Both the position numbers and the translations under genes were made by a program. A stretch of 30,464 nucleotides of DNA from positions 1 through 30,464 of the IMG/VR virus record IMGVR_UViG_3300042261_001560; one strand, 5' to 3'. Below, in pieces: positions 7,979 through 30,464 of this stretch; positions within the stretch are counted from its first letter, which is position 1; each line of letters starts with the position of its first letter. The notes under the pieces are model-generated. The model had not been told where the DNA came from and made no database searches. It saw only the letters and a program-made list of their open reading frames with translations. Origin of the DNA: a virus.

Positions 7979-9544
7979 ATGTCTGCAATTGTAACAGATA
8001 AGTTTAGAATACTCAATGCATCAAATTTTATAGATTCTGTTCAGAATTCTTCAAATTCTTATTATGTTTTTGTTGGTTTACCCAATCCCGCACCAGCAAC
8101 TGTTGGATATGGAAGAACAGATAATTGGGACTCTAGTACTCCAAATCCAACAGATAATTTTGATTATGAAAATCACTATAAATCTACCATTCTATTTGGT
8201 AAAAAAATTACAAGTGCTAATATTAGGAGAGTAATCAGAAAAATTGATTGGTCTTCTGGACAAAGATATGAAATGTATAGACCGGATTATAGTATTATAC
8301 ACCCATCACCAAGAGGTTCATTTAGATTATATGATACAAATTATTATGTTATAAATTCAGATTATAGAGTTTATATTTGTATTGATAATGGTTCATCAGG
8401 ATTAAATCAGAATGGAAATGCATCACAAATTGAACCAACATTCACAGACTTAGAACCATCAAAATCTTCCGATGGTTATGTTTGGAAATATCTCTATACT
8501 GTCTCTCCTAGCGATATCATTAAATTTGATTCTACAGAATATATTACAATACCTAATGATTGGGGAACATCCACAGATGCACAAATATCAGCAGTTAGAG
8601 AAAATGGTAATTCCGATTTAAATGAAAATCAAATTAAAAAAGTTTATATTCAAAATCAAGGAGAGGGTTATTCTGCAGGAACATTAAGTTGCAATTTAGT
8701 TGGAGATGGGTCTGGAGGTACTGTTTCAGTTACTGTTGACACATCAACCAAAATTACAGATGTAACTGTTACTTCTGGAGGAAAAAACTATACTTATGCT
8801 TTAGTTGATTTAAAAACAACTGCCAATCCAGGAACTTTCGCAGAACTAATTCCAATTATTCCACCATCAAAAGGTCATGGATTTGATGTGTATAAAGAAT
8901 TGGGCGCAGATAAGGTTTTAATTTATGCCAGATTCGATGATTCAACTAAAGATTTTCCAATAGATACTAAATTTGCTCAGGTTGGTATTTTAAAAAATCC
9001 GACAGTATATGATTCTACAGGAATTAATACAACGGTTTATTCTAATACTGAATTTTCTTCAGTTTATGCGATGAGATTCGATGGCACTGTTACAGGAACA
9101 CCATCAGTTGGAGATAAAATAAAGCAAAATGTAAGCGGAGGGACTGCATATGGTTATGTAGTTTCTTACGATTCTGAAACAAAGGTTTTGAAATATATTC
9201 AAGATAGATCACTTTATTATGGAGGGGGAGGTTATTTTACTCATACAGACTTTGTTGGCATGTCATCATTCTTTTCACCATCAACTAATACAATATTTGG
9301 GTTTGAATCTGAAAAACAGGTTGTTAATGGAACTGGAACTTTTTCTGCAACTGTTGGAACATATTCAGGTATTACTACAACAATTTCGAATAAAGTTATA
9401 AATCTTGGAGTTGAATTTACAAATGGACTTGCAACTCCAGAGATAAATAATAAGTCGGGGGATATCATTTATATTGATAATAGACCTTTGGTTGCAAGAA
9501 ATTATAGACAAAAAGAAGACGTTAAAATTATCCTGGAATTCTAA
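7979..9544 (+). CDS. gp8: Baseplate wedge protein gp8
   Basis: A 521-aa protein starting MSAIVTDKFRILNASNF. Its aromatic N-terminal half contains KIDWSSGQRYEMYRPDYS and SSDGYVWKYLYTVSPSDIIK, typical of gp8-type wedge proteins of marine T4-like phages. In T4, gp8 (334 aa) forms dimers that bind gp7, gp10 and gp6 in the wedge. This version is longer. The extra length is mostly in the second half and includes two GxGY/GGxxY repeats (nt ~8647-8690 and ~8768-8812) of the same kind as those in its neighbours. The ATG lies 20 nt after a late promoter, with no strong Shine-Dalgarno. It is followed within 3 nt by the next ATG, so the two genes are probably co-transcribed. Confidence 0.85.
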   Translation: MSAIVTDKFRILNASNFIDSVQNSSNSYYVFVGLPNPAPATVGYGRTDNWDSSTPNPTDNFDYENHYKSTILFGKKITSANIRRVIRKIDWSSGQRYEMYRPDYSIIHPSPRGSFRLYDTNYYVINSDYRVYICIDNGSSGLNQNGNASQIEPTFTDLEPSKSSDGYVWKYLYTVSPSDIIKFDSTEYITIPNDWGTSTDAQISAVRENGNSDLNENQIKKVYIQNQGEGYSAGTLSCNLVGDGSGGTVSVTVDTSTKITDVTVTSGGKNYTYALVDLKTTANPGTFAELIPIIPPSKGHGFDVYKELGADKVLIYARFDDSTKDFPIDTKFAQVGILKNPTVYDSTGINTTVYSNTEFSSVYAMRFDGTVTGTPSVGDKIKQNVSGGTAYGYVVSYDSETKVLKYIQDRSLYYGGGGYFTHTDFVGMSSFFSPSTNTIFGFESEKQVVNGTGTFSATVGTYSGITTTISNKVINLGVEFTNGLATPEINNKSGDIIYIDNRPLVARNYRQKEDVKIILEF

Positions 9545-9547
9545 AAA

Positions 9548-12500
9548 ATGGCTCAAAAAACTAATCTTAATGTAAGTCCATATTTTGATGATTTTTCTGA
9601 AAAAGATGAGGGTTCTAGGGACAAAAATTATTATAAGATATTATTTAATCCAGGAAGAGCAATACAAGCTCGTGAACTAAATACTCTCCAGTCAATATTA
9701 CAAAATCAAGTTGAGTCTTTTGGTAGTCATATCTTTAAAGAAGGTTCTGTTGTAATACCAGGAAATATTACTTATGATAATCAATTTTATGCAGTAAAAT
9801 TAAATCCATCCCAATATAATGTTTATATAACAACTTACTTATCAAAATTTGTTGGTAAAAAAATTACAGGTCAAGTATCTGGAGTTACTGCATCTGTTCA
9901 ATATGTTCAATTGCCAAATTCTGAAGTTGAATATCCAACTTTATATGTAAAATATCTTGATTCTGATAAAAATTTTGAAATAAATCCATTTCAAGATAAT
10001 GAAGAGTTAATTGCATCTGAAGATATACAATATGAAACATCAACTATAATTTCAGGAACACCTTTTGCAACAACCATTTCAAAAAATTCTACAGCAACTG
10101 GATCGGCAGCATCTATTGGTGAGGGTGTATATTTTGTTAGGGGTACATTTGTTCGAGTTCCTAAACAAACTATAGTTTTAGATTATTATACAAATATTCC
10201 ATCTTACAGAGTAGGATTAAGAGTAAACGAAGAAATCATTACTGCAAAAGATGATACTACACTGTATGATAATGCGAAAGGTTTTACTAATTATGCAGCT
10301 CCTGGCGCAGATAGATTTAAAATTTCATTGTTTTTAACCAAAAAACTTTTAACAAATACAAATGATACTGATTTTATTGAATTATTAAAAATCAAAGATG
10401 GATCTATCAAAAAAATAGAAACAAAATCAAGTTATTCGATTATTAAAGATTATTTGGCACAAAGAACATATGATGAATCTGGTGATTATGTAGTAACACC
10501 CTTTCAATTTTCATTAAATAATTCTTTAAATGATAGACTTGGTAACGATGGTATATTCTTTAGCAATGAAAAGACTGATCAGGGTAATACTCCATCAGAC
10601 GATTTGATGTGTGTAAAATTTTCACCAGGAAAAGCTTATGTGAGAGGTTATGATGTTGAGAAAACTGGTGTTGAAATTATAGATGTTCCTAAACCAAGAA
10701 CAAAACAGACAATATCTTCGGTAAATATTCCTTTTGAAATGGGAAATTTGCTCAGAGTTAATAATGTAAGTGGTTCTCCAAAGCAAAGAGATGTAATTTA
10801 TCTACAAAGCAGAAGAAAAAATAGTACTACAGTTGCAGCGGGATCAACAATTGGTTCTGCAAGAGTATATACGTGCAATGTAACAGATGCCGCATACACT
10901 GGAGCATCTACAAATTGGGATTTATATTTATTTGATGTTCAAACTTATACAATTATTACATTAAATCAATCTGTTTCTTCATCAGAAATTCCAGCAACTT
11001 CATATATTAAAGGAAAAAGTAGTGGTGCGAGTGGTTATGCAGTTTCTGCCGGATCTGGAACTCAAATTAGTCTCAGACAAACATCTGGAACTTTTTCAAT
11101 TGGAGAACAAATTTTAATTAATGGAAGCGAATCAATTTCAAGAACTATTTTGTCGATTAAATCGTATAATACTGAAGATATTAAATCAGTATATCAATCA
11201 CAACCCAGCGGTTTTACAACTTCATTTGTAGCAGACGCTCAGTTAGATAGAGTTTTGAGGTCAGAAACAATAACAATAGCAGCAGAAAGTGGTGGAATTA
11301 GCGTAGTAACAGTTTCAAGTCCAGGAACTTTAAGTGGTATTAGTACAGATAACATTATAAGATATCAAAGACCAGGATTATCGGTAGAAACTTACAATAG
11401 AGTCGTATCCGTTTCTTCTTCATTATTATCTATGACTTTGGAATCGGTTTCAAGTGTAACTTCAGTTTGTGATGGTTCTTTACCTGCTTCATCACTAACA
11501 ATTTCTGGATATTCTTTAGGAATTTCTAAAATTAGAAATGAAGAAAAGGGATTTCTATATTCAGAATTGCCAAATTCAAATATCGCTTCAACCAATTTAA
11601 ATTCCTCAACAATAACATTTTCTGCCCAAACGAATACAAATTTAACACCTTCTTCAAAAACATTAACCGTAGACACTGGAAAGTTTAATCTTGGAATTAA
11701 TTCCTCTACTGCAAAATTTGAAGCATTTGATGAAGAAAGATATTCTATTGCATACAGTGATGGAACCGTAGAAAATTTAACATCTGATAAAGTTTCAATT
11801 GGCGGAAATTCTGCAGAAGTTACATTTTCTAATATTGCAAATACTCAGATTTCTGCAATTAATGCGACCTTTGTAAAATCGGGAATTCAAAGCAAAGTTA
11901 AACAATTTAATAGATCTCAATCAATTAACATAAATTTATCAAAAAATTCACAGTCTGGTGTTGGGATTAATACTTCTATAAATGATGGGTTAATTTATAA
12001 TCAATATTACGGTCTTAGGGTTCAGGATGAAGAAATATGTTTAAATTATCCAGATGTCGTTAGGGTAATTGCAATTTATGAATCTTTAGATACAAGTGCT
12101 CCAGTTTTAGATAAATTATCATTCAGTTCAATTGCAAATGTTGATAATAACGCTATTGTTGGTGAAAATATTATAGGTTCAAAAAGCAATGCGATTGCTA
12201 GAGTTGTAAACAAACCCTCAGCAAATACTCTTGGAATTGTTTATCTCAATAGTAATAGATTTATTGTTGGTGAAAATGTATCCTTTGAGGAATCCAACAT
12301 CAACACCACTTTATCCTCCATTACTTTAGGAAGTTATAGAGATATAAGTAGTAAATTTACTTTAGATAAAGGTCAGAAAGAACAATATTACGATTATTCG
12401 AGAATTGTAAGAAATTCTGGAGAAAGTGCCCCATCAAGACAACTTTTAGTTGTCTTCGATTATTATTCGGTTCCTTCATCCGACACTGGAGATGTATTTA

Positions 12501-15500
12501 CTGTAGATAGTTATGATCAAGAAAGATTTTCTAAAGATATTCCAAATATTGGTAAAAAAAATGTAAGATCTTCAGATACTTTAGATTTTAGACCAAGAGT
12601 ATCAGTATTTTCTTCAACAGATAAATCGCCATTTGATTTCGATTCTCGTTCTTTTGGAAATGAACCAAAACTAATTGTATCTCCAAATGAAAGTTCTTTA
12701 GTTGGTTATGACTTTTATCTTGGAAGAATTGATAAATTGTATATTGACAGTTTGGGAATTTTTACGGTTTTGCAAGGTTCGCCATCAACAAACCCAAAGC
12801 AACCAATTAAACCTGAAAATGTGATGGAAATTGCAACTATCACATTACCGCCATATCTCTATAATCCAAAGGATGCATCAGTTTCATTGTTGGATAATAG
12901 AAGATATACTATGAGAGATATTGGCAAAATTGAGGATAGAGTAGAAAACTTAGAAAGAGTAACATCCTTGTCATTACTTGAACTTAATACTCAAACTTTA
13001 CAAATACAAGATGCAAACGGAATCAATAGATTTAAAACCGGATTTTTTGTAGATGATTTCAAAAATACTGATCTAATCAATACCCAAGCATCTACATCAC
13101 AAGTTGATAAAAAAAATGATGAACTTACAACTCAAATTAGTAAAAATAGTATAAATCTTAGACCTGTTCTTTCTACAGCAGTATCAGATGAAAATTATGA
13201 TTCGTCAATCAATTTTACATTATTTGACTCAAATGTACAAAAAACTGGAGATGCGATTACATTAAAATATGAGTCTATTGGTTGGATTGACCAACCTTTC
13301 GCAACAAAAGTAGAAAATGTTAATCCATTTCATGTAATATCTTATAGTGGAACTATAAAGTTAACTCCATCTAATGATAGTTGGGTAAGAACAATTAGAT
13401 TATCTGATGTAAATATAAATCAAACAAATTGGACTTGGTTAAGAGATACCGGAACATTTAGAGTTGTTGATAGTAGCGAAAACATTTCTGTCGAAGATAG
13501 ATTGATTTCAAGTGGAACAGAACTCTATATGAGGTCTAGAAACACCGGATTCAGTGCCGTTAATTTAAAACCACTAACTAGAGTTTATCAATTTTTAGAC
13601 AGCAATAGTGGTGTTGATTTTATTCCAAAATTAATTGAAATCTCGTCTGATTCTACTCTCCAAAATTATGGTTCTTCTGCAGCATTTCAAGTTGGAGAGA
13701 CTGTAAAGGGGTCCTTTAATGGAGCAAATATATCTTTTAGAGTAGCATCATCAAATCACAAAGAAGGTGAATTTAATAATCCTTCCTTTACATATACCAC
13801 AAATCCATATTCAACCAACGAAACTATTCCAGAATCATATAGTGCATCATCCAAAACTCTAAATGTAGATATTTCTTCCTTATGTGAGTCTACTCAGGGG
13901 TTGTATTCTGGATATGTGACAATAGGAATGAAATTAGTCGGACAAACAAGTGGTGCAGTTGCGTATGTGAAAGATCTAAGATTAATTACTGATGCTAATG
14001 GATTTGTTTCGGGTTCATTCTTCCTAAGAGATCCAAATACTAATCCCCCCCCATCGGTTAGAATTGCAACTGGTTCTAAAGTTTATAAATTAACCTCAAG
14101 TTCAACAAATCAAACTCCTTCACCGGGAAGTACATTAATTTCTTCCGCAGAGACAATTTATAAATCGGAAGGAACTTGGGAAGAAAGGCAAAAAATTACA
14201 ACAACTACAACTTCCATTTACTTTGAAGATCCATTAGCACAATCATTTACTGTTGGTGGAGTTGCTGATACTACGAATGGAAATAGACCAAATGAAGATG
14301 TAAATGGTGCATATTTAACTGCCGTTGATTTATTCTTTGCGAATAAAGATGCCAATAATGCTCCCCTAACTGTTGAGATTAGAACTGTTGAACTTGGTAC
14401 TCCGACAAGATCAATAATTGGAAATCCTGTTACATTAAATCCAGGTGATATTAAAACTTCAACAAACGCAAGTGTTGCAACAAGAGTAACTTTTGACTAT
14501 CCAATTTATCTTGCACCTGGTTTAGAATATGCACTTGTTCTTCTTGCACCACAAACTGACCAATATGAGGTTTGGATTGCTGAAATGGGTGAAAAAACAA
14601 TCGAAACTGCAAATTTACCAGACTCTCAGGCAGTTAGATATTCTAGACAATTTGCAATCGGAAGTTTATTTAAATCTCAAAATGGTTCAATTTGGACAGC
14701 AAATCAATACCAAGATTTAAAATTTAAACTTTATAAAGCAAACTTTACATCAAAATCTGGTAGTGTTCTTTTCACTAACCCAACATTACATCAAAGTAAT
14801 AGTTATGTTCCAACTTTGACTTCAAACCCAATTACAATTTTACCCAGAAAATACACGCTCGGAATTACTACAATTTATGATTCCTCTTTGATTGGTATTT
14901 TAACAACTGGCAGAAAAGTTTCATCACAATCTGCATCATATTCAGGAAGTTATGGTTATATCGTAGGATCTGGAAGTTCTGTTTCTTCTGTAGCAATTGC
15001 AACTGGTGGATTCAATTATAGTTCAGGAAGTGTTCAAACTTATAATATTAGCGGAAATGGTAATGGTAGCAATTTAAGACTTAACATTACAACATCAAAT
15101 GGTGTTATTACTGGAGTTGCAGTTTCTTCTTTATATCCTGGAAACGGATATTCTGTAGGGGATGTTGTTGGCATTGTTACATCTACAGTATCGCCAGCTT
15201 CTGGTAAGGATGCTCGTATCACTATTACAGGAATCTCTGGTAGAGATACATTATATCTTTCAAATGTTCAAGGAAATTCTTTTTTAAATGTTGGTATTTC
15301 TTCTTTAGTTTATTATAATGACTCTGGAAATGCAGTTTCTCTTGCATCTACATCAATTACTTCTAGATCTTCTTCTACTGGTGGAATTTATTCTGGAAAT
15401 TTCTTCAAAGTTAATCATTATGATCATGGAATGTATTCTAATGTAAATAAATTAATTATTTCAAATGTTGAATCTGATGTTCCACCGACAACATTATCTT

Positions 15501-20148: not shown

Positions 20149-20336
20149 TTACAATAAATATAATAGTTGATAAAAATAGTATCCAAACAAGAACATGCAA
20201 ACGAGCATAAAATTCTTTGGGAACAGAATGGAAAAAAGAAGAAATTGCTTGGAGAATGTTAAGTGGACAAATAAATTCATACGAATAAAATATAGAGTTC
20301 ATTTAAAAAATGTTTTGAATAATCGGGTATAGGACA
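20149..20336 (+). other. Gap between genes 14 and 15 with a possible decayed small ORF
   Basis: This 188-nt stretch is the longest gap in the window. One frame reads SKQEHANEHKILWEQ (nt ~20182-20226), then goes on to GKKKK and stops. The next frame continues plausibly as EWKKEEIAWRMLSGQINSYE and stops at TAA (~20287-20289). A single inserted base near 20226 would join the two into one ~36-aa acidic, helical protein, but there is no ATG at its front. A third frame has an intact ATG ORF (20195-20332, 45 aa, very basic) that ends just before gene 15. I cannot say which, if any, is translated. Confidence 0.35.
20153..20164 (+). promoter_or_regulatory. Possible late-promoter variant overlapping a TATAAT box
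   Basis: AATAAATA (20153-20160) differs from the late consensus at one base. It overlaps TATAAT (20159-20164), a perfect sigma70 -10 hexamer, with TTGGTA at 20135-20140 as a weak -35 at about 18 nt. It lies just after the gene 14 stop and could serve gene 15. In AT-rich DNA such matches arise easily by chance. Confidence 0.35.
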
Positions 20337-21134
20337 ACGCTAGGAACATACTACTATCACGAAATTATTAGAAGAACTGTTGTTGCATTTGGAACGGTTT
20401 TTAATGACATTTATATAAGGCATAAAGATTCTTCTGGAGATAGTATAAGTGAAATTAAAGTTCCTCTCGCATATGGTCCAATTCAAAAGTTCTTGGCAAG
20501 AATTGAACAACAATCCGAATTAAACAAACCGATAGCAATGACCTTGCCAAGAATGGCATTTGAAATGATATCTATACAATATGACTCTACAAGAAAAACA
20601 AATGTTACTCAATCATTTAAAGCAATAGATGGGCAAAATTTAAAAAAAGTATACTTGCCTGTACCTTATAATATTGGGTTTCAATTAAATCTTATGACCA
20701 AATTGCAAGATGATGCATTGCAAGTTGTTGAGCAAATTTTACCTTTTTTCCAACCATCATTTAATTTAACTGTTGATCTTGTAGATTCTATTGGCGAAAA
20801 AAGAGATATACCGATTGTATTAGATAGTACATCGTTTACTGATGATTATGAAGGTGATTTTTCTACGAGAAGAGTTTTAATTTATACTTTTAATTTTACG
20901 GCAAAAATTTACTTATTTGGACCTATTGCTGAAAGTTCTGATGGACTTATTCGCAAAGTTCAAGTTGACTATTATGCTGGAACTGATAAAAATACTGCTA
21001 AAAGAGAAATGAGATATACTGTTGTTCCAGATCCAATTAACGCATCCGCAGATGATGATTTTGGATTCAATGAATCAATTGATATGTTATTTGATTCTAA
21101 AGAATATAGTCCAACGCAACAAAAAGATATTTAA
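20337..21134 (+). CDS. gp15: Tail sheath stabilizer / tail completion protein gp15, start codon abnormal
   Basis: In T4, gp15 caps the tail tube and sheath and joins the tail to the neck (272 aa). The conserved N-terminus is clearly coded: LGTYYYHEIIRRTVVAFGTV, then DIYIRHKD and VPLAYGPIQKFLARIEQQ. Counted from the ACG at 20337 the protein has 265 aa, the expected length. Relatives I recall begin M-(L)-G-T-Y/F-Y-Y-H, so ACG stands where ATG is expected. The frame has no ATG or GTG before the TTG at 20493, which would delete 52 conserved residues. An in-frame ATG at 20310 is followed by TGA at 20316. The start is therefore uncertain (non-canonical start, mutation or sequence error), but identity as gp15 is firm. 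Confidence 0.85.
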   Translation, partial: TLGTYYYHEIIRRTVVAFGTVFNDIYIRHKDSSGDSISEIKVPLAYGPIQKFLARIEQQSELNKPIAMTLPRMAFEMISIQYDSTRKTNVTQSFKAIDGQNLKKVYLPVPYNIGFQLNLMTKLQDDALQVVEQILPFFQPSFNLTVDLVDSIGEKRDIPIVLDSTSFTDDYEGDFSTRRVLIYTFNFTAKIYLFGPIAESSDGLIRKVQVDYYAGTDKNTAKREMRYTVVPDPINASADDDFGFNESIDMLFDSKEYSPTQQKDI

Positions 21135-21140
21135 TAGACT

Positions 21141-21563
21141 ATGAAAAATAATTATGGAAGTTTGGACGAATCTCTCAATATTGAGAGTAGCATTGTAGAG
21201 GTAGAAAAGGTTAAAGAAGAATTAAATATCACTCCAATAAATTCTGAAGATATTCAAAAAGACTACGAATATACTCGTGCAAATTTATATTCATTGATTG
21301 AAAAGGGGCAAGAAGCAATTAATGGAATCATGGAACTTGCTGGCGAAGGAGGTAGTCCAAGAGCATATGAAGTTGCTGGACAACTTATTAAGAGTGTTGC
21401 AGATACTACAGATAAACTCATAGATTTACAGAAAAAACTAAAAGATGTTGAGGATCAAACTGTAAAGACAACTAATAATGTTACCAACAATGCAGTGTTT
21501 GTTGGATCTACATCTGAACTTTCAAAATTACTCAAGCAAGGTTTTCTAAATAATAAAGAGTAA
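21141..21563 (+). CDS. gp16: Terminase small subunit gp16
   Basis: A 140-aa protein. The central region (EYTRANLYSLIEKGQEAING, IMELAGEGGSPRAYEVAGQL) and the following long helix (LIDLQKKLKDVEDQ) match the coiled-coil core of T4-type gp16. The C-terminal NNAVFVGSTSELSKLLKQG is the usual tail segment. In T4, gp16 (164 aa) forms rings that regulate the large terminase gp17 and help start packaging. It starts 6 nt after gene 15. Unlike in T4, gene 17 does not follow directly; three genes lie between. Confidence 0.9.
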   Translation: MKNNYGSLDESLNIESSIVEVEKVKEELNITPINSEDIQKDYEYTRANLYSLIEKGQEAINGIMELAGEGGSPRAYEVAGQLIKSVADTTDKLIDLQKKLKDVEDQTVKTTNNVTNNAVFVGSTSELSKLLKQGFLNNKE

Positions 21564-21577
21564 TATTTTTTATTATT

Positions 21578-23371
21578 GTGCATAAATTAAAGTCTCATAA
21601 AACAGTTGGGCAGATTGCAAAAAAACATCGTCTTGAAGTTTCTTTTGTAAAAAATCAACTTGAAATGGGAATTCCTATTGAGTATGAGCACACAAAAGAT
21701 AAAGATCTTGCAACAGACATTGCTCTTCAACATCTTGATGAGATTCCAGATTATTATACTCGTCTGAAAAAAATGGAATCAGATGCTAAAAATCATCATA
21801 AAAAATTTAAAGATGTGAAGGAACATTGTGGTTGTGAAGATACTGCCGTTGAAGAACTCGAAGATCAATTAATGGATTTGAGTGACCATTCGTATAGATC
21901 TATTGATAGATTAATGCGTCGTATTATGAAAAAACATAATATGACGGCGAAACAATTACATAATGCATTTTTAGATAAAAATAAAAAAACTCCAGATGAT
22001 TGGATTAAAGATCTAAAGGAAGGAACTCTTCATCATTGGTTTAAAGGTTCTAAATCTAAAGATGGAAAACCTGGATGGGTTCAGGCCGATGGATCTCCCT
22101 GTGCCAATGAACCTGGAGAAACTAAAACACCAAAATGTTTTAGTAGCGGAAGACTTAGATCTTTAAAGAAAAGGGGGAAAAGGGGAGTTGCAATAATTAG
22201 ATCAGCAGTTCGTCGCAAAAGACAAAAGGATAAAGGTCAACAGCAAAAAACTGGAGCAGAAAAACCAACAAATGTTCCGACCTTTGCTAAGGGTAAAAAA
22301 GATAAAAATTACATCAAAGCAGAACCAGGAATTAAGGAAGCAATGGAACTTAACGAATCGAAAAAAGATAGACCAGGTAAAAATAGTGGTAAAAAAGATG
22401 CCTGCTATCATAAAGTAAAATCTAGGTATGATGTTTGGCCTTCGGCTTATGCATCTGCTTCTCTAGTAAAATGCCGTAAAGTCGGTGCTTCAAATTGGGG
22501 AACACAGTCAGAGGAAAAGGAAATGATTAGATATTGTCCCAAATGCCAAAAAGATGAGACTCGTGATGAATGTAAATACGGACCAAAATATTGGGATATG
22601 TTTTCCACCCCATCAGCACTTACACCAAATCAATTAAAATATAATATTGCTACGGTTCATCCTGGCAATTTTCCAGAATCATACGATCATGAGCATTCAA
22701 TGGCTCGTTCAGAACTTTCCACAATTATTTCAGCAGCAAAAAGACTTCGTAAAAAAATGAAAGGAGAAGGTGATATTAAAGCGTGGGTTCAATCAAAGAT
22801 TACTAAAGCAGCAGATTATCTTGATACTGCCGCAGATTATATTGATAGTGGAGAAATGAAGGAGCAGGTTGCAAATACTGATTCTCCAGCAGATAACCCA
22901 AATATTGAAAGATTTAGTACAGCAATTAAATCAATTATAAAAAGAAACCTACCAGATGCCCGAAAAATAAATGCTCTTAAACAAGCGGCACAAATATATC
23001 ATGGTTTGCGTGAAGAAATTAGTTTTGAAAAAGGAAAACTTTCTGGACCTTCATTACCTCTTGCAGATTCTTACGAATACTCAAATTGGAGAGTAGAGTT
23101 TGGATTATCGGAAGATTGGCAGAAAGTCAATCGTCAAGACAAAACCGATGGTTTAAGTCCTGCTGCAGTCAAAGCATATCGTCGGGAAAATCCAGGTTCA
23201 AAATTGCAGACTGCTGTAACTGAAAAGAAACCTAAGGGTAAAAGAGCAAAGCGTCGTGCTAGTTTCTGTCGTCGTATGAAAGGTGCAAAAGAAAAATTAA
23301 CTTCTGCAAAAACTGCAAGAGATCCAGATTCAAGAATCAATAAAGCACTTCGTCGTTGGAACTGTAACTAA
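21578..23371 (+). CDS. Mosaic Lys/Cys-rich phage protein (DUF5661-, DUF5872- and DUF6321-like segments)
   Basis: A 597-aa protein with a GTG start and no good SD. Segments in order: residues ~8-68 resemble DUF5661 (VKNQLEMGIPIEYEHTKDKD ... IPDYYTRLKKME). Residues ~157-195 have GKPGWVQADGSPCANEPGE and KCFSSGRLRSLKKRGKRG. Residues ~268-310 are DUF5872-like (KKDACYHKVKSRYDVWPSAY). Residues ~317-340 are a possible zinc-binding patch (CPKC at 320-323, C332). Residues ~395-430 hold AWVQSKITKAADYLDTAADY. Residues ~518-597 are DUF6321-like (LSPAAVKAYRRENPGSKL ... RRASFCRRMKGAKEKL). DUF names are from memory. The high basic charge suggests DNA or RNA contact, perhaps as an internal head protein. Function is unknown. 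Confidence 0.65.
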   Translation: MHKLKSHKTVGQIAKKHRLEVSFVKNQLEMGIPIEYEHTKDKDLATDIALQHLDEIPDYYTRLKKMESDAKNHHKKFKDVKEHCGCEDTAVEELEDQLMDLSDHSYRSIDRLMRRIMKKHNMTAKQLHNAFLDKNKKTPDDWIKDLKEGTLHHWFKGSKSKDGKPGWVQADGSPCANEPGETKTPKCFSSGRLRSLKKRGKRGVAIIRSAVRRKRQKDKGQQQKTGAEKPTNVPTFAKGKKDKNYIKAEPGIKEAMELNESKKDRPGKNSGKKDACYHKVKSRYDVWPSAYASASLVKCRKVGASNWGTQSEEKEMIRYCPKCQKDETRDECKYGPKYWDMFSTPSALTPNQLKYNIATVHPGNFPESYDHEHSMARSELSTIISAAKRLRKKMKGEGDIKAWVQSKITKAADYLDTAADYIDSGEMKEQVANTDSPADNPNIERFSTAIKSIIKRNLPDARKINALKQAAQIYHGLREEISFEKGKLSGPSLPLADSYEYSNWRVEFGLSEDWQKVNRQDKTDGLSPAAVKAYRRENPGSKLQTAVTEKKPKGKRAKRRASFCRRMKGAKEKLTSAKTARDPDSRINKALRRWNCN

Positions 23372-23372
23372 A

Positions 23373-23681
23373 ATGAAATCTTTTCAACAGTTTATTTCAG
23401 AATCTATTAACATTGCAGGAGATTTCAATGGAAATCTTTATATGAATTCGTCTCAACCAGAAATTGCAAATGAGTCTTTTCTTGCAGATGTTGTATGGCA
23501 GGGAAGATTATATCGTATGCAACTTGAAGGTAAGATTATGAGTAAGAATGAACTTGCGGAACAACTTCAATCAGAATATCCTGGAGCAATTGTCCATAAT
23601 GTTTATCCCGTAACAGAAGCGTCAATCAAAGTTAAGAATGCAGAAAGATATAGACCAGAAAGATTGTCATGGGGTGAGTAA
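23373..23681 (+). CDS. Small protein with a capsid-targeting-like N-terminus
   Basis: A 102-aa protein whose first ten residues, MKSFQQFISE, closely resemble the capsid targeting sequence of T4 internal head proteins (MKTYQEFIAE in IPI-III and Alt). I8-S9-E10 also fits the I/L-x-E cleavage rule of the gp21 prohead protease, so cleavage after E10 is predicted. The rest (ESFLADVVWQGRLYRMQLEG, ELAEQLQSEYPGAIVHNVYP) looks like a small alpha/beta fold I do not recognise. The ATG is 1 nt after the previous stop, and the end overlaps the next ATG (TAATG). A head-interior role is inferred only from the N-terminus. Confidence 0.65.
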   Translation: MKSFQQFISESINIAGDFNGNLYMNSSQPEIANESFLADVVWQGRLYRMQLEGKIMSKNELAEQLQSEYPGAIVHNVYPVTEASIKVKNAERYRPERLSWGE

Positions 23682-24985
23682 TGGCTCAGTGGAACAAGAT
23701 TAATCAAGATTATCTCAACCAAGAAAGAAGTCTGTTTGAGGTGTTCATGCAGGCTGATAGATATGGTGAGATCTTTGATCCAGTTGGACAAGGTTTTAAT
23801 GGCGATCTTTTTGGAAGAGTCAAAGTATCTGAACCATTTACTTTATTTGATTCCACTCATCGATATGCTCAAGATGGAGATTTTAGCGATATAGTTATTG
23901 GTGCGGGTTCTACTGTTGGTATTATAACTGCACAGAGCACTGCAACGTTAGGAATCGGAACAACTGCAGGGTGTTCTATTATTCGTGAAAGTAAGAGAGT
24001 ATTTTCATATCAACCAGGAAAAGCATTACAAGTTCTTCAGACATTTGTGTTTAATCCTGCAAAGGAAAATCTGGTTCAGAGAGCGGGATATGCATCATCA
24101 GAAAATGGTGTGATGTTAGAACTAAATGGTTCTCAATTAAGTTTTATCAAAAGAACTGCAATTTCTGGAGTTGGAACTACAATCAGTGTCCTACAAACAG
24201 ATTGGAATATTGATACTCTAGATGGATCTGGGCCAAATGAATCCAATCCGAGTGGGATTGCTTTGGATATAACAAAAGCACAAATTCTTTTTAGTGAATA
24301 TGAATGGTTGGGTGTTGGTTGTGTAAGAGTAGGTTTTGCAAATTCTTTCGGAAAGTTTCATACTGCACACGTTTTTAATCATGCAAATACTCTTGATAGT
24401 GTTTATATGACGACTGCATCTCTTCCAGTTCGTTATGAGATTCTAAACACAGGAATCACAACATCTACATCAACGATGAAACAGATATGTGTGTCTATTC
24501 AATCCAATGGTGGATATGAGAAAAGAGTTGCGTCTGATGTTGCAAGACAGGAGTCATTAGTTTCGGTGGCATCTACAACTTTTAAACCTCTTGCAAGTAT
24601 TCGTCTAAAGGCAGGAAAAGAGGATGCAATCGTTATTCCAAGTCAAATAAACTGTTTACCAGATAGTTCTTCTTCGGTTTATTATGAAGTTGCATTGATT
24701 AAAAATGCAACTTTAACTGGAGGAACTTGGGTAACTTCATCATCTCCAAATGTGGAACAGAACGTTACTGCAACATCAATGTCTGGTGGAACCATTGTTA
24801 GAACGGAATATATTTCTTCTGCAAATAAAGCGTCTACACCCCTAAATGAAGTAACCGAATATAATTGGGATTTGCAATTAGGTAGAACACAAACAAAAAT
24901 CAGTGATACATATACTTTAGCGGTTAGAGCAATTTCCGGAAGTGGAAATGCTATTGGTTCTTTAAGTTTTTATGATTTAACATAA
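23681..24985 (+). CDS. Putative virion structural protein (434 aa)
   Basis: A 434-aa protein that begins AQWNKINQDYLNQERSLFEV and has no signal peptide, membrane segment or enzyme motif I can see. The middle part (SENGVMLELNGSQLSFIKRT, DWNIDTLDGSGPNESNPSGI, ILFSEYEWLGVGCVRVGF, FHTAHVFNHANTLDSVYMTT) looks like a beta-sandwich domain. I recall it from structural proteins of marine T4-like phages, but I know no function for it. The rest is Ser/Thr/Gly-rich with GIGTT-type turns (residues ~85-100). It lies between genes 16 and 17 with a TAATG overlap upstream and a 1-nt gap downstream. Packaging is likely; the location in the particle is unknown. Confidence 0.65.
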   Translation: MAQWNKINQDYLNQERSLFEVFMQADRYGEIFDPVGQGFNGDLFGRVKVSEPFTLFDSTHRYAQDGDFSDIVIGAGSTVGIITAQSTATLGIGTTAGCSIIRESKRVFSYQPGKALQVLQTFVFNPAKENLVQRAGYASSENGVMLELNGSQLSFIKRTAISGVGTTISVLQTDWNIDTLDGSGPNESNPSGIALDITKAQILFSEYEWLGVGCVRVGFANSFGKFHTAHVFNHANTLDSVYMTTASLPVRYEILNTGITTSTSTMKQICVSIQSNGGYEKRVASDVARQESLVSVASTTFKPLASIRLKAGKEDAIVIPSQINCLPDSSSSVYYEVALIKNATLTGGTWVTSSSPNVEQNVTATSMSGGTIVRTEYISSANKASTPLNEVTEYNWDLQLGRTQTKISDTYTLAVRAISGSGNAIGSLSFYDLT

Positions 24986-24986
24986 T

Positions 24987-26720
24987 ATGGCAATTCAAGA
25001 TATTCAATTACAACAAAAGGATGCATATCTCTCTAACCCAAATCTTAAGAGAGCAAATACTCATATTCAGTGGACCGAAGAGCAAATTTTAGAATTCCTC
25101 AAATGCAAAGAAGATCCAGTATATTTTGCAAATAATTATTTGAAAATTGTATCATTGGATCATGGATTAATCCCTTTCAAATTATATAAGTTTCAAGAAA
25201 AATTAATCGAAAACTTTCATAAGCATAGATTTAATATTTGTAAGATGCCAAGACAGACTGGCAAAAGTAGTATTACAGTAGCATATTTATTACATTATGC
25301 ACTATTTAACGACAGTGTAAATATTGCTATTCTTGCAAACAAAGCATCGACTGCTAGAGACCTATTACAGCGACTACAACTGGCATATGAGAATTTACCT
25401 AAATGGATGCAACAAGGCGTCCTACAGTGGAACAGAGGTAGTTTAGAACTTGAAAATGGATCTAAAATTATGGCAGCATCCACAAGTGCTTCTGCAGTTC
25501 GTGGTGGTTCTTATAATATTATATTTTTAGATGAATTTGCATTCATTCCAAATCATATTGCTGACGACTTTTTTGCTTCCGTTTATCCCACTATTTCATC
25601 AGGAAAATCAACTAAGGTTATTATAGTTTCAACTCCACGCGGTATGAATCATTTTTATCGCATGTGGCATGATGCAGAAAGAGGTAAAAATGGATATATT
25701 CCTACCGAAGTTCATTGGTCTGAAGTTCCAGGTAGAGATGAAGAATGGAAAGCGCAAACTATTGCAAATACAAGTTTAGAACAATTTAGAATCGAATTTG
25801 AAACAGAATTTTTGGGGTCAGTTAACACACTTATTAATCCTGCAAAACTCAAAAATTTTGTATATGATGATCCAATTAGAAAAAATGATAGTTTATATGT
25901 TTACGAAAATCCAAAAGAAGAAAATAATTATTTGATTACCGTTGATGTCGCTAGAGGAATTGGTAATGATTATTCGGCATTTATTGTTTTTGATATAACT
26001 AATTTTCCATATAAAGTGGTTGCAAAATATAAAAATAATGAAATAAAACCTATGTTATTCCCAAGCATCATCAACGAAGTTGCTAGAGGTTATAATAATG
26101 CTTGGTTATTGATTGAAGTTAATGATATTGGAGATCAAGTCGCAAATATTTTACATTTTGATCTAGAGTATGACAACATTTTAATGTGTTCTATGAGAGG
26201 TCGTGCCGGACAAATTGTTGGTTCTGGTTTTAGTGGTAAAAAGTCTCAACTAGGTGTTCGTATGACCGCAGCAGTTAAAAAGTTGGGATGCTCTAACTTA
26301 AAAACCTTGATGGAAGATGATAAATTGCTAACAAATGACTATGATATAATTTCAGAATTAACCACTTTTGCACAAAAACACAATTCATTTGAAGCAGAAG
26401 AAGGATGTAATGATGACCTAGCTATGTGCCTTGTAATTTTCGCATGGTTAGTTGCTCAAGATTATTTCAAAGAAATGACAGATAATGATGTCCGTAAGAG
26501 GATATATGAAGAGCAGAAGAATCAAATTGAACAAGATATGTCCCCATTTGGATTCATTTCTGATGGACTAGAAGATTTTGGCGTTACTATCGATGAAGAA
26601 ACTGGAGATAGATGGATATTTGTAGGTCAAAAGAAAGAAAATAATCCTTTAGAAGTTTGGAATCTTGACGAATATGGTGATGTTTCTTCAGAATGGAAGT
26701 ATATGTGGGATTATAGATAG
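24987..26720 (+). CDS. gp17: Terminase large subunit gp17 (ATPase and nuclease)
   Basis: A 577-aa protein, complete and uninterrupted. It pumps DNA through the portal and cuts the concatemer. The ATPase domain has Walker A PRQTGKS at residues 88-94 (K93), Walker B IIFLDE at 178-183, and the coupling motif STPRG at 215-219. The RNase H-like nuclease domain has ITVDVARG with D320, LIEVND with E377, and CNDDLAM with D477; these are the probable metal-binding acids by analogy to T4 D401, E458 and D542. T4 gp17 is 610 aa, so the length is normal. The ATG follows the previous stop by 1 nt. A late promoter and 67-nt gap follow. Confidence 0.97.
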   Translation: MAIQDIQLQQKDAYLSNPNLKRANTHIQWTEEQILEFLKCKEDPVYFANNYLKIVSLDHGLIPFKLYKFQEKLIENFHKHRFNICKMPRQTGKSSITVAYLLHYALFNDSVNIAILANKASTARDLLQRLQLAYENLPKWMQQGVLQWNRGSLELENGSKIMAASTSASAVRGGSYNIIFLDEFAFIPNHIADDFFASVYPTISSGKSTKVIIVSTPRGMNHFYRMWHDAERGKNGYIPTEVHWSEVPGRDEEWKAQTIANTSLEQFRIEFETEFLGSVNTLINPAKLKNFVYDDPIRKNDSLYVYENPKEENNYLITVDVARGIGNDYSAFIVFDITNFPYKVVAKYKNNEIKPMLFPSIINEVARGYNNAWLLIEVNDIGDQVANILHFDLEYDNILMCSMRGRAGQIVGSGFSGKKSQLGVRMTAAVKKLGCSNLKTLMEDDKLLTNDYDIISELTTFAQKHNSFEAEEGCNDDLAMCLVIFAWLVAQDYFKEMTDNDVRKRIYEEQKNQIEQDMSPFGFISDGLEDFGVTIDEETGDRWIFVGQKKENNPLEVWNLDEYGDVSSEWKYMWDYR

Positions 26721-26741
26721 ATTGTGCAAGTCATAAGAATT

Positions 26742-26749
26742 TATAAATA
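26742..26749 (+). promoter_or_regulatory. T4-type late promoter upstream of gp18
   Basis: An exact TATAAATA in the 67-nt gap between genes 17 and 18. It is followed by an unusually good ribosome binding site for this window (AGGAG at 26776-26780, 7 nt before the ATG). This fits very high expression of the tail sheath protein late in infection. Confidence 0.8.
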
Positions 26750-26787
26750 CTTTTAGAATAATTCTGGAATTGTAGAGGAGAATAAAG

Positions 26788-28965
26788 ATGCCGCTAAATT
26801 TAGCATCTCCTGGAATTGTAGTAAGGGAAATTGATTTAACATTAGGAAGAGTAACACCATCATCAAACAAAATTGGAGCAATTGTTGCCCCTTTTGCTAA
26901 AGGTCCTGTAAATTCACCAACTTTAGTAGAAAATGAAAATGATTTACTGAGAAATTTTGGAGAACCATATTCGACAGATAAGCATTATGAACATTGGTTG
27001 TCTGCCTCTTCATATCTTGCTTATGGCGGATCACTTAGAGTTGTTAGAGCAAATGACAATGAGTTAAGAAACGGTTTTGTAGGAACTGCATCTAGCGTAA
27101 AAATTGATAGTTTAGATCATTATAATGCTTTAGGATATGATCAAAATACTCTTACTGGAGTAGTAGTTGCTGCTAAAAACCCAGGTTCTTGGTCAAATGG
27201 TGTTAGAGTTGCAATTATTGACTCTAAAGCAGATCAAATTTTAACAGGTATTAGTACTTCAGTATCATCCGGAATTACAACAATTTCCGTAGGATATGGC
27301 GTTACTCAATCAGTATCGGGTAGAATTAATCCCGGTGCTGGTTCAACATCTGTTCTTGACGGATATTTAAAGGGTATTATTACTCAAGTGAGTGAAAATA
27401 ATGTTTATGTAAAAGTTCTCTCACATGTATCTGCAGCAGGAACTGAAACTCCTGTGGATTATCAACCATCGGGAATTTATGCATTTTCTTCAACCGGAAG
27501 TGTTGCAATTCATACTAATGGTCAAACTGTTTCAACAGGAACAACAACATATAGTTCTGGACTTGATTGGTTTGATCAACAAAAAATAGGTTTAACAACC
27601 TCATCATCAATCAATTGGAATAACATTGCACCAAGACCTGGAACATCTGCATATGCTGCAGCAAGAAACTCAAGGTTCGATGAAGTGCATGTAGTTACGA
27701 TTGATGCCTTGGGCACAATTACTGGAAATGCTGGTACTATTCTTGAGAAGCATTTAAGTCTTTCTAAAGCATCTGATGCAGAATTCTCTATTGGAAATCC
27801 TTCATACTGGAGAAAATATCTCGCAAATAATTCTGAATATATTTTTGGTTTAGGTGCTCCTGCCGGTATTGTAACTACAGGTTATAGTTCAGGATTTACT
27901 ATTGCATCAGATACTGGTTGGGATCAGAAAGCAGATGGAATTATTTTTGCTGCAACAGGATCTTCAACAAATACTCTTGCTGGTGGTAAAGATTATGGCG
28001 GAAAAAGTGGCATTACAAGTACAGGATCCCTCACAGCATCATTGGCAAAGTTATCAGATGGATATGATTTATTTGAAAATACAGACAACTATAAGATAGA
28101 TTTTCTTCTGATGGGTTCAGCAGCATATGATATTTCAAATACACAAGCACTTGCAAATAAACTAATTTCTGTTGCTGAACTGAGAAAAGATTCCATTGCA
28201 TTTATTTCTCCATATAGAGGTTCTGCTTTAACTGATACTTCAACACAAACTGAGGTAACTGTAAAATCTTCACAAGATATTACATCAAATGTAATATCCT
28301 TCTATGCGCCCGTTTCTTCTTCTTCATATGCTGTATTTGATAGTGGATACAAATACATGTATGATAGATTTTCAAATACATTTAGATATGTACCTTTAAA
28401 TGGAGATATGGCAGGTCTTTGTGCCCGCAACGATATCAATAACTTCCCATGGTATTCTCCAGCAGGAACTACACGAGGGGCAATTCTGAATGCGGTTAAA
28501 CTTGCATATAATCCATCAAAATCTCAAAGAGATCAACTTTATTCAAATAGAATTAATCCAGTAATCTTCTCACCAGGATCTGGAATTATTTTGTTTGGTG
28601 ATAGAACAGGTCTTTCTAAATCTTCAGCTTTTGATAGAATTAATGTTCGTCGTCTTTTTGTTTATCTTGAAGATGCAATTTCTGGAGCAGCAAAAGATGC
28701 TTTGTTTGAATTTAATGATGAAATTACAAGAACAAACTTTGTAAATACCATTGAACCTTTCTTACGCGATGTTCAAGCAAAAAGAGGTATCTTTGATTAT
28801 ATTGTTATTTGTGACGAAACAAATAATACTGCTGCAGTGATAGATAATAATGAATTTGTTGCTGATATCTACATCAAACCAGCAAGATCAATTAACTTCA
28901 TTGGACTGAACTTTATTGCCACCAAGACAGGTGTTGATTTTGAAGAAGTAATCGGAAACTTTTAA
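26788..28965 (+). CDS. gp18: Tail sheath protein gp18
   Basis: A 725-aa protein (T4: 659 aa). The N-terminus (LASPGIVVREIDLT) and segment LVRNFGEP-like LLRNFGEPYSTDKHYEHWLS are typical of contractile sheath proteins. So is the C-terminal part (YNPSKSQRDQLYSNRINPVI, GIILFGDRT, FDRINVRRLFVYLEDAI, and the end AGINFIGLNF-like SINFIGLNFIATKTGVDFEE). The middle domain (residues ~150-340) is the exposed, variable part and carries Gly/Thr-rich stretches like those in the baseplate proteins. It polymerises around the tail tube and contracts on infection. It has its own late promoter and a strong AGGAG; gene 19 follows after 19 nt. Confidence 0.96.
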   Translation: MPLNLASPGIVVREIDLTLGRVTPSSNKIGAIVAPFAKGPVNSPTLVENENDLLRNFGEPYSTDKHYEHWLSASSYLAYGGSLRVVRANDNELRNGFVGTASSVKIDSLDHYNALGYDQNTLTGVVVAAKNPGSWSNGVRVAIIDSKADQILTGISTSVSSGITTISVGYGVTQSVSGRINPGAGSTSVLDGYLKGIITQVSENNVYVKVLSHVSAAGTETPVDYQPSGIYAFSSTGSVAIHTNGQTVSTGTTTYSSGLDWFDQQKIGLTTSSSINWNNIAPRPGTSAYAAARNSRFDEVHVVTIDALGTITGNAGTILEKHLSLSKASDAEFSIGNPSYWRKYLANNSEYIFGLGAPAGIVTTGYSSGFTIASDTGWDQKADGIIFAATGSSTNTLAGGKDYGGKSGITSTGSLTASLAKLSDGYDLFENTDNYKIDFLLMGSAAYDISNTQALANKLISVAELRKDSIAFISPYRGSALTDTSTQTEVTVKSSQDITSNVISFYAPVSSSSYAVFDSGYKYMYDRFSNTFRYVPLNGDMAGLCARNDINNFPWYSPAGTTRGAILNAVKLAYNPSKSQRDQLYSNRINPVIFSPGSGIILFGDRTGLSKSSAFDRINVRRLFVYLEDAISGAAKDALFEFNDEITRTNFVNTIEPFLRDVQAKRGIFDYIVICDETNNTAAVIDNNEFVADIYIKPARSINFIGLNFIATKTGVDFEEVIGNF

Positions 28966-28984
28966 TTCAGAGGCTTAAAAAACT

Positions 28985-29575
28985 ATGGCAACCAGACAAC
29001 AATTTAATACACCTCCTTTAAGGAAGATTACTGACTTCAAAAGTAAGTTAACCGGCGGTGGTGCTAGAAGCAATCTTTTTGAAGTTGTATTATCATTTCC
29101 AAATATCGCATCAGCAGATATTAATGTATTGGATAAATCAAGATTTTTGGTGAAGGGTGCGAACTTACCAGCATCTAATGTAGCTCCACTTGATGTACCT
29201 TTTAGAGGAAGAACCTTAAAAGTCGCTGGAGATAGATCCTTCGAAAGTTGGACAGTAACTGTAATTAATGACACTGATTTTGCAATCAGGTCTGCATTTG
29301 AAAATTGGATGAATAAAATTAATAGGGTTTCTGACAATACTGGAGAAACTGATCCATCAGAATACACTGCAGATGCTTTTGTTTATCAACTTGATCGTGA
29401 TGGAACTACTCTTAGAGCATATCATTTTTATGATATTTTTCCATCATCAATTGGTTCAATTGCTCTTGATTATAATACACCAAATATTCAAGAATTCACT
29501 GTGGAATTCCAAATTCTTTGGTGGGAAGCAATTAAAGGTAATTCACCTTCTGCTGGTGGTACGGACATCAACTAA
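28985..29575 (+). CDS. gp19: Tail tube protein gp19
   Basis: A 196-aa protein (T4: 163 aa). It has the T4-like tail tube pattern: GGGARSNLFEVVLSFPN, then KGANLPASNVAPLDVPFRGR with LKVAGDRSFESWTVTVIND, and a long helix FAIRSAFENWMNKINRVSD. It ends FTVEFQILWWEA. Rings of this protein form the inner tube through which DNA passes. It directly follows gene 18, probably on the same transcript, with an SD-like AGAGG about 11 nt upstream of the ATG. The order 18-19-20 is as in T4. Confidence 0.96.
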   Translation: MATRQQFNTPPLRKITDFKSKLTGGGARSNLFEVVLSFPNIASADINVLDKSRFLVKGANLPASNVAPLDVPFRGRTLKVAGDRSFESWTVTVINDTDFAIRSAFENWMNKINRVSDNTGETDPSEYTADAFVYQLDRDGTTLRAYHFYDIFPSSIGSIALDYNTPNIQEFTVEFQILWWEAIKGNSPSAGGTDIN

Positions 29576-29579
29576 ATAA
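29572..29579 (+). promoter_or_regulatory. Possible late-promoter variant before gp20
   Basis: CTAAATAA overlaps the gene 19 stop codon and lies 25 nt before the gene 20 ATG, the same spacing as the exact boxes before genes 8 and 114-aa. It departs from TATAAATA at more than one base, so it is only a candidate. Confidence 0.35.
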
Positions 29580-29604
29580 ATTATACACAATTTAAGTTTA
29601 TAAG

Positions 29605-30464
29605 ATGGCGAAACTTTTTGGTTTTTCGATTGAAGATAATGTTCAAAAATCCAAATCTGTAGTTGCCCCCGTTCCTCCCAATAATGAGGACGGGGTTGAT
29701 TATTTTATTCAGTCTGGATTTTATGGACAGTATGTAGACATTGAAGGAGTTTATAGGACAGAATATGATTTAATTCGTCGTTATCGTGAAATGGCACTTC
29801 ACCCAGAATGTGATAATGCCATTGAAAGTGTTGTAAATGAAGCAATTGTAAGTGATCTGTACGATTCTCCAGTAGAGATTGAATTATCAAATTTAAATGC
29901 GAGTGATCGTTTAAAAGAAGTAATAAGAGCAGAATTTAAATATATCAAAGAAATCATGGACTTTGATAAAAAGTGCCATGAAATTTTTAGAAATTGGTAT
30001 GTTGATGGTAGAGTATTTTATCTTAAAGTTATCGACCAAAAAAATCCTGCGGCAGGTATTCAGGAACTAAGATATGTCGATCCAATGAAGATAAAGCATG
30101 TTCGTCAAGAAAAAAAGACGGAGAATGGTGTTAATGGATATCGAAATTTAAATTTAAGATCTGGAAATGATGCTGACCAGTACAATTTTCCAGAAATTGA
30201 AGAGTATTTTGTATACACTCCAATGCCAAATTTTCCAACAGGAACAATTAGTGGAGGATCAAAAAAAGGAGTTAAAATTGCAAAAGATTCTGTCACATAT
30301 TGTACATCAGGTCTTGTAGATAGAAATAAAGGAACTGTTCTCTCGTATTTGCATAAAGCAATTAAAGCACTCAATCAGTTAAGAATGATTGAGGATTCTT
30401 TAGTAATTTATCGTCTATGTCTTGTTGGCAATACAAGAGTAAAAACAAATAGGGGATATTCATA
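29605..30464 (+). CDS. gp20: Portal protein gp20, N-terminal part, interrupted by an apparent intein (3' end outside window)
   Basis: The ATG at 29605 opens a frame of 286 codons that reaches the right edge. Residues 1-271 are portal: VPPNNEDGVDYFIQSGFYGQ, YVDIEGVYRTEYDLIRRYRE, ALHPECDNAIESVVNEAI, DGRVFYLKVIDQ, ELRYVDPMKIKHVR, and LNQLRMIEDSLVIYRL. The portal is the dodecameric ring at the head vertex through which gp17 pumps DNA, and on which the neck assembles; T4 gp20 is 524 aa. In T4-like relatives Y-R-L/I is followed by S/T-RAPERRIFYID. Here residue 272 onward is CLVGNTRVKTNRGYS instead, in frame and without a stop. The portal C-terminus must lie beyond the window. No strong SD precedes the ATG. 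Confidence 0.93.
   Translation, partial: MAKLFGFSIEDNVQKSKSVVAPVPPNNEDGVDYFIQSGFYGQYVDIEGVYRTEYDLIRRYREMALHPECDNAIESVVNEAIVSDLYDSPVEIELSNLNASDRLKEVIRAEFKYIKEIMDFDKKCHEIFRNWYVDGRVFYLKVIDQKNPAAGIQELRYVDPMKIKHVRQEKKTENGVNGYRNLNLRSGNDADQYNFPEIEEYFVYTPMPNFPTGTISGGSKKGVKIAKDSVTYCTSGLVDRNKGTVLSYLHKAIKALNQLRMIEDSLVIYRLCLVGNTRVKTNRGYS
29667..29695 (+). other. GC-rich hairpin inside the start of gp20
   Basis: CCCCG (29667-29671) pairs with CGGGG (29691-29695). After a one-base bulge (29672), TCCTC (29673-29677) pairs with GAGGA (29686-29690), leaving an 8-nt loop. Ten pairs, mostly G-C, are unusual in such AT-rich DNA. No U-tract follows, so it is not a simple terminator. Confidence 0.5.
30418..30464 (+). 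other. Start of an intein (Hint block A) within gp20, truncated by the window
   Basis: From Cys272 of the portal frame the protein reads CLVGNTRVKTNRGYS to the edge. This fits the intein N-terminal block A: a nucleophilic Cys1, a hydrophobic residue, Gly, then D/N-T-x-V-x-T and a turn with Gly. It lies exactly where relatives have the conserved RL/SRAPERR motif. A returning extein would then start with Ser, a valid +1 nucleophile. Only 15 residues plus two bases are visible, so blocks B, F and G, a homing endonuclease, and whether it is continuous or split cannot be judged. Confidence 0.85.

Follow-up and report, generated by a model that had tools for sequence, protein, structure and literature searches.

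The window, a stretch of 30,464 bp that makes up an entire IMG/VR contig, comes from a T4-like cyanophage (cyanobacterial myovirus), whose closest isolate is Synechococcus phage S-SRM01 (80% DNA identity across 46% of a 22-kb query). Its genes encode, in order, a neck protein, a gp15-type sheath stabiliser, a small terminase-like packaging protein, gp17, gp18, gp19 and the portal protein gp20 (Table 1). A 597-aa protein whose N end carries DUF5661 and whose C end carries DUF6321 is encoded at 21578-23371, between the genes for the small and the large terminase. The contig end falls 47 nt inside an in-frame insert in the T4-like gp20 gene. At the 30417/30418 junction the portal ORF, open from 29605, passes from ...EDSLVIYRL to CLVGNTRVKTNRGYS with the frame unchanged and stays open to the end of the record, and the Portal_T4 (PF07230) match, which covers residues 54-271, ends at this junction. 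A first-pass annotation of the window had read the insert as the beginning of an intein, either continuous or split. As the window is the whole contig, it holds no sequence downstream of the insert.

Table 1. Coordinates of the portal intein, of neighbouring packaging and tail genes, and of the insertion sites mapped in T4-like portals
Feature	Position	Strand	Evidence
Large terminase gp17, intein-free, uninterrupted	24987..26720	+	Terminase_6N 1.5e-20, Terminase_6C 5e-11
Tail tube protein gp19, directly upstream of portal gene	28985..29575	+	Phage_T4_gp19 E=1.4e-7; T4-like structural gene order
N-extein, first 271 residues of T4-like gp20 portal, C-terminal end ...QLRMIEDSLVIYRL	29605..30417	+	Portal_T4 E=7e-73; 87% identity to S-SRM01 portal
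Start of intein a, 15 codons + 2 nt, cut by contig end	30418..30464	+	Block A motif CLVGNTRV; completed by L003
Intein a, full length, 1,257 nt (419 aa)	L003:10168-11424		99.99% overlap of L003; Pfam; model
Portal insertion sites, S-SRM01 numbering	248, 253, 261, 273 (= site a), 313 (= site b), 316, 325, 350/351, 392/393		

Completion and anatomy of intein a

A separate record, L003 (IMGVR_UViG_3300047491_000300), matches the window from 20251 to 30464 with 1 mismatch in 10,214 bp (99.99%) and extends 2,182 bp past the window end. It completes an intein of 419 aa (intein a) that ends at SRAPERRIFYID, confirming the intein suspected at 30418, and the SRAPERR continuation anticipated for the portal follows directly (...NFVANGIVVHN/SRAPERRIFYID; C-terminal boundary in L003 ...EKHNFVANGIVVHN|SRAPERRIFYIDVG). 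A further contig, L031, overlaps L003 over 1,575 bp at 99.94% identity, and in it the frame runs on to the portal stop. Because of these overlaps the window, L003 and L031 were treated as one virus, the join being defined by 99.9% identity of the overlaps, not by a single molecule. We also searched IMG/VR with a degenerate DNA pattern for the junction only (YRL-C-[LIVMF]-x-G-[ND]-T-x-V), which retrieved 16 loci, every one of them (16/16) a T4-like portal with a complete intein at exactly this position (site a).

These data bear on two trivial or structurally different readings of the insert. The contig breaks 47 nt into the insert, just where a mixture of occupied and empty strains would break an assembly, so its last 47 bases might be a chimeric join of the portal to an unrelated intein. 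The same junction is nevertheless present in L003, inside the 10,214-bp overlap with its single mismatch, and is shared by 15 further loci; since the independent record both matches across the junction and continues beyond it, a misjoin at 30418, which the first-pass annotation had named as a finding that would overturn its proposal, is ruled out, and an artefact of this kind is extremely improbable. T4-like marine phages are known to have split inteins (in gp41, NrdA and NrdJ), and the window by itself could not distinguish a continuous intein from the N-half of a split one, in which case the portal would be made as two chains joined in trans. In L003 and L031, however, one open frame leads from the N-extein through two inteins to the portal stop, and the complete loci of related phages likewise consist of one open frame. 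Of the two forms initially envisaged, the continuous one therefore stands; the split form, with N and C halves on separate ORFs, is rejected for the window's virus and has next to no probability.

Intein a is of the class 1 type, with Cys1, a block-B TxxH, a C-terminal His-Asn and a +1 Ser, and the expected blocks A, B, F and G are all present. Cys1, in the block A motif, is conserved in 54/54 aligned relatives; in block B (GTDTHPIL), His68 is found in 54/54 and Thr65 in 37/54, the others having Asn or Ser. Asp400 is likewise invariant (54/54), the terminal Asn occurs in 53/54 (one row is misaligned) and the penultimate His in 50/54. Block G of L003 reads VVHN/SRAPERR, and the +1 residue is Ser, Thr or Cys in 59/59 members of family A. 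Another site-a intein (L006:2626-3861) ends in GIPVGN instead of VVHN and lacks the penultimate His. Two LAGLIDADG motifs, LFGFLLGDGSI (D213) and ILGLLDADGCY (D306), bear out the prediction of a LAGLIDADG or HNH domain; each acidic residue is found in 50/54 aligned relatives, and both are intact in L003. The proposed search with Hint-domain profiles was also positive, Pfam giving Intein_splicing at 1e-12 and LAGLIDADG_3 at 4e-7, both over cut-off. An AlphaFold model built on the alignment of 54 relatives (pLDDT 94.3) predicts a Hint fold with a homing-endonuclease domain. The best PDB matches of this model in Foldseek are the TliVMA intein-endonuclease, PI-SceI and PI-PfuI (E to 2e-18), which have the Hint and LAGLIDADG endonuclease architecture in common with intein a but only 12-17% identity to it, and which reside in other host proteins of archaea or yeast.

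Intein b and the predicted spliced portal

Forty portal residues after intein a, L031 carries a second insert of 464 aa (intein b), which is HNH-like and ends in DAGIYTCN/STGEVRDD, followed by 248 portal residues to the stop. It matches Pfam Intein_splicing (1e-10), and its fold is Hint-like, matching mini-intein structures. Intein b contains an HHxN(x)nNxPxNL-type HNH-like motif and no Pfam HNH match, so that its nuclease is assigned by the motif only. In the penultimate position it has Cys in place of His, a substitution that can slow intein splicing. The +1 position of site b is Ser in all occupied alleles and mostly Asn or Gln in empty ones, a pattern that fits the need for a nucleophile there.

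The precursor thus comprises ~1,442 aa (271 N-extein, 419 intein a, 40 middle segment, 464 intein b and 248 C-extein). In-silico removal of both inteins yields a 559-aa portal, 508/559 residues of which (91%) are identical to the 563-aa portal of S-SRM01, itself intein-free at both site a and site b. PF07230 was also matched on both exteins in the related locus L011. The T4 gp20 structures 3ja7 and 6uzc match the S-SRM01 portal at 1e-101 or better, and T4 gp20 aligns over the entire S-SRM01 protein. By residue count on this alignment, site a separates I276 from T277 where helix alpha5 of the stem (255-278) ends, and site b, which belongs to the clip domain (279-358), separates A316 from S317. 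Residues 288-311 of T4 gp20 fall within the intervening segment, and a peptide of these residues is reported to bind gp17 and inhibit packaging (PMC4493910). Judged from the insert position, an unspliced chain would be unable to form a working portal ring, and on sound structural grounds splicing would be needed for the portal.

Portal inteins in related phages

A profile of intein a retrieved 79 loci, all in T4-like portals where the flanks were readable, and a profile of intein b another 79, mostly portals. After deduplication, 101 distinct inteins remained from the two probe families; they occupy about nine sites of T4-like portals (Table 1), and all of them (101/101) are free of internal stops. 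Additional N-terminal and unmapped insertions exist beyond these sites. The invaded positions lie in or beside the stem, clip, channel-loop and tunnel-loop core of the portal. For family B, Asn followed by Ser, Thr or Cys was used in calling the intein ends and Cys1 was built into the search pattern; since these criteria presuppose both features, only family A tests Cys1 and the end residues freely. At site 350 (TLPGG^SNLGEL; L219-L236, match at 3001 to about 3450) many mini-inteins of 146-151 aa without endonuclease were observed, accompanied by relatives of 435-471 aa with an HNH-like insert.

Among the GenBank phage records, 2,360 of which contain a portal homologue, inteins at the T4-like gp20 sites mapped here were not found in isolates. 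At E<=1e-5, intein a matches just four records; three are gut crAss-like terminases, and the only portal match is the huge phage LR756508, at other sites. This uncultured 484-kb phage (L096, LR756508.1 144734-151285; a record without annotation) has three inteins in its portal gene, one of them with an HNH-like insert, at sites that differ from those of the window. No cellular donor was identified in 84,980 prokaryote genomes; the best matches to intein a are generic archaeal or bacterial inteins, mostly at 21-30% identity and in non-portal proteins among the exteins examined. Bacillus phage SP-15 encodes a 'hypothetical protein' (L097, SP15_022), not annotated as a portal, with a Hint-like stretch 31% identical to intein b.

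Inteins, LAGLIDADG endonucleases, inteins in phage packaging genes and mycobacteriophage portal inteins are already known. Six cases of portal (PORT) inteins have been described in cluster C1 mycobacteriophages (PMC5050341); these likewise lie within a phage portal protein but, unlike that of the window, belong to actinobacterial phages with a POG1190 portal. Mycobacteriophage records gave no match to intein a, intein b or a site-248 intein at E<=1e-5 in a collection in which no C1 record was found. Terminase large-subunit inteins have been reported in Salmonella phage Maynard, Rak2/K64-1 and Campylobacter phage IBB_35 (PMC3868846, PMC5259590, PMC3322345). These inteins of T4-like and other myoviruses are also homing inteins in the DNA-packaging motor, but they are located in gp17, whereas the window's is in gp20 and its gp17 is intein-free. 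In-frame, intein-like inserts of ~320-330 aa were also observed in the gp17 Walker A of L007, L016 (about 12500-13500, minus strand) and L013 (about 9204-10211, minus strand), with the form RQxGK^...THN/STT and Lys or Ala, not Cys, as the first residue. L013 has a second gp17 insert at FES^CEFLGS (about 8144-8685, minus strand), whose N part ends in a stop and whose C part (IISHN/CEFLGS) is in a different frame, which would be accounted for by fracture of an intein, by a frameshift or by an error of assembly. Intein-rich crAss-like phages have several inteins per genome in TerL and PolB, including two in one TerL gene (PMC7886860), compared with two in one portal here and three in the LR756508 portal. 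The open-access literature yielded neither an account of a T4-like gp20 intein nor any description of the portal as a multi-site intein target.

Mobility, decay and function

Of the 80 nearest portals, just 2 carry an intein at site a and the other 78 are empty there. The portals of L101-L103, 90-91% identical to that of the window, are empty, while that of L104 (87%) is occupied. The inteins cluster by insertion site, with 3 changes for 4 sites, the minimum; site 253 inteins nest inside the site a clade, which suggests one target shift. Silent divergence is lower in the intein than in the flanking portal in 7/8 pairs, for example 0.24-0.31 against 1.47 in L018/L020, 0.39-0.45 against 1.9 in L024/L027 and 0.05-0.28 against 1.3 in L026/L027, where dS above about 1 is near saturation; the pair L018/L023 has no such deficit. 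Sliding identity between L026 and L027 is mostly 95-100% in the intein and 57-88% on both sides, with a step at each junction. The inteins of L018 and L004 are 50% identical and their portals only 33%, and the L022 portal is closest to that of L030 (85%) while its intein is closest to that of L018 (85% versus 65%). In tree tests with groups named after the trees had been seen, the portal grouping is rejected on the intein alignment (p-AU 0.005), while on the portal alignment, which is shorter, the intein grouping is not rejected (p-AU 0.135 without outgroups, 0.32 with outgroups). Because the portal tree cannot reject congruence, reliance was placed on the silent-site contrast. The grouping by site, the 2/80 occupancy and the usually lower silent divergence together show that the inteins spread horizontally.

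Taken together, intein a is very probably a mobile, selfish homing intein, continuous and of the class 1 LAGLIDADG type, which sits at the end of gp20 alpha5 and has to splice for a working portal. Its anatomy, conserved catalytic residues, empty and occupied alleles and horizontal movement are all read from sequence, and we infer from them splicing and DNA cleavage by intein a. The precursor would be translated as a single chain, from which inteins a and b would excise themselves by Cys1/Ser+1 chemistry to leave a normal portal of ~559 aa. When two phages share one cell, the endonuclease would cut the intein-free gp20 gene at the YRL^SRAPERR codons, and repair of the cut gene would copy the intein in. 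Through this cut-and-copy spread the intein would behave as a selfish mobile element, one protected by its location, since the portal would tolerate neither failure to splice nor imprecise deletion of the insert. The horizontal spread and site fidelity of these sequences are consistent with the predicted site-specific cleavage of empty alleles.

In the close relatives L002, L007 and L016 the acidic residue of the second LAGLIDADG motif is Asn instead of Asp, and most of the endonuclease is missing in L014/L069 and L075; mobility is therefore already decaying in some lineages, and the presence of Asp to Asn and endonuclease-less copies resembles the invasion, decay and loss known from the homing cycle. 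With sister inteins 93% identical to intein a among the substituted copies, a domesticated element that has kept splicing while its endonuclease no longer works could be considered for the window too, but this is unlikely given that the L003 copy retains both acidic residues and that dN/dS of the endonuclease is 0.05-0.16 in 7/8 pairs (silent changes in the eighth, at 0.45, are too few for it to be counted), values that place the endonuclease under purifying selection. Even less probable is a conditional-splicing switch, by which portal rings would form, and head assembly and motor docking follow, only when conditions such as redox state or timing permit splicing. Cysteine-based splicing can indeed be redox-sensitive, as published for other inteins, and portal and terminase inteins co-occur in relatives. 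Such a switch is attractive because of the intein position, to which its support is limited, the insertions at T4 gp20 276/277 and 316/317 flanking the gp17-binding peptide 288-311 (PMC4493910). However, the sporadic 2/80 occupancy with near relatives devoid of the intein, the purifying selection on the endonuclease and the horizontal movement are what a homing parasite predicts, and no observation demands regulation.

The selfish homing intein of the window is less interesting than the hot-spot pattern to which it belongs. The T4-like portal gene is likely to be an unrecognised intein hot spot, invaded at about nine sites in or beside the core by two unrelated families, LAGLIDADG and HNH-like, and by mini-inteins of ~147 aa, with up to three inteins per gene; the pair in the window's virus would bracket the motor-docking segment, so that portal maturation and motor docking would wait on splicing.

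Head assembly is nucleated by the portal, the ring that admits the viral DNA and to which the packaging motor is attached, and the virus would therefore depend on protein splicing for its capsid. The gp20 gene is also a standard PCR marker for T4-like cyanophages, and the common CPS1 forward primer lies a short way downstream of site a. An intein at site b, 325 or 350 would add 0.4-1.4 kb to the gp20 amplicon, and such phages would consequently be hidden from amplicon surveys. New inteins, among them the mini-inteins of ~147 aa, can be drawn from the roughly nine portal sites, and related phages, with alleles that are occupied, decayed or empty, offer a tractable natural series in which pure parasitism may be told apart from tuning of assembly.
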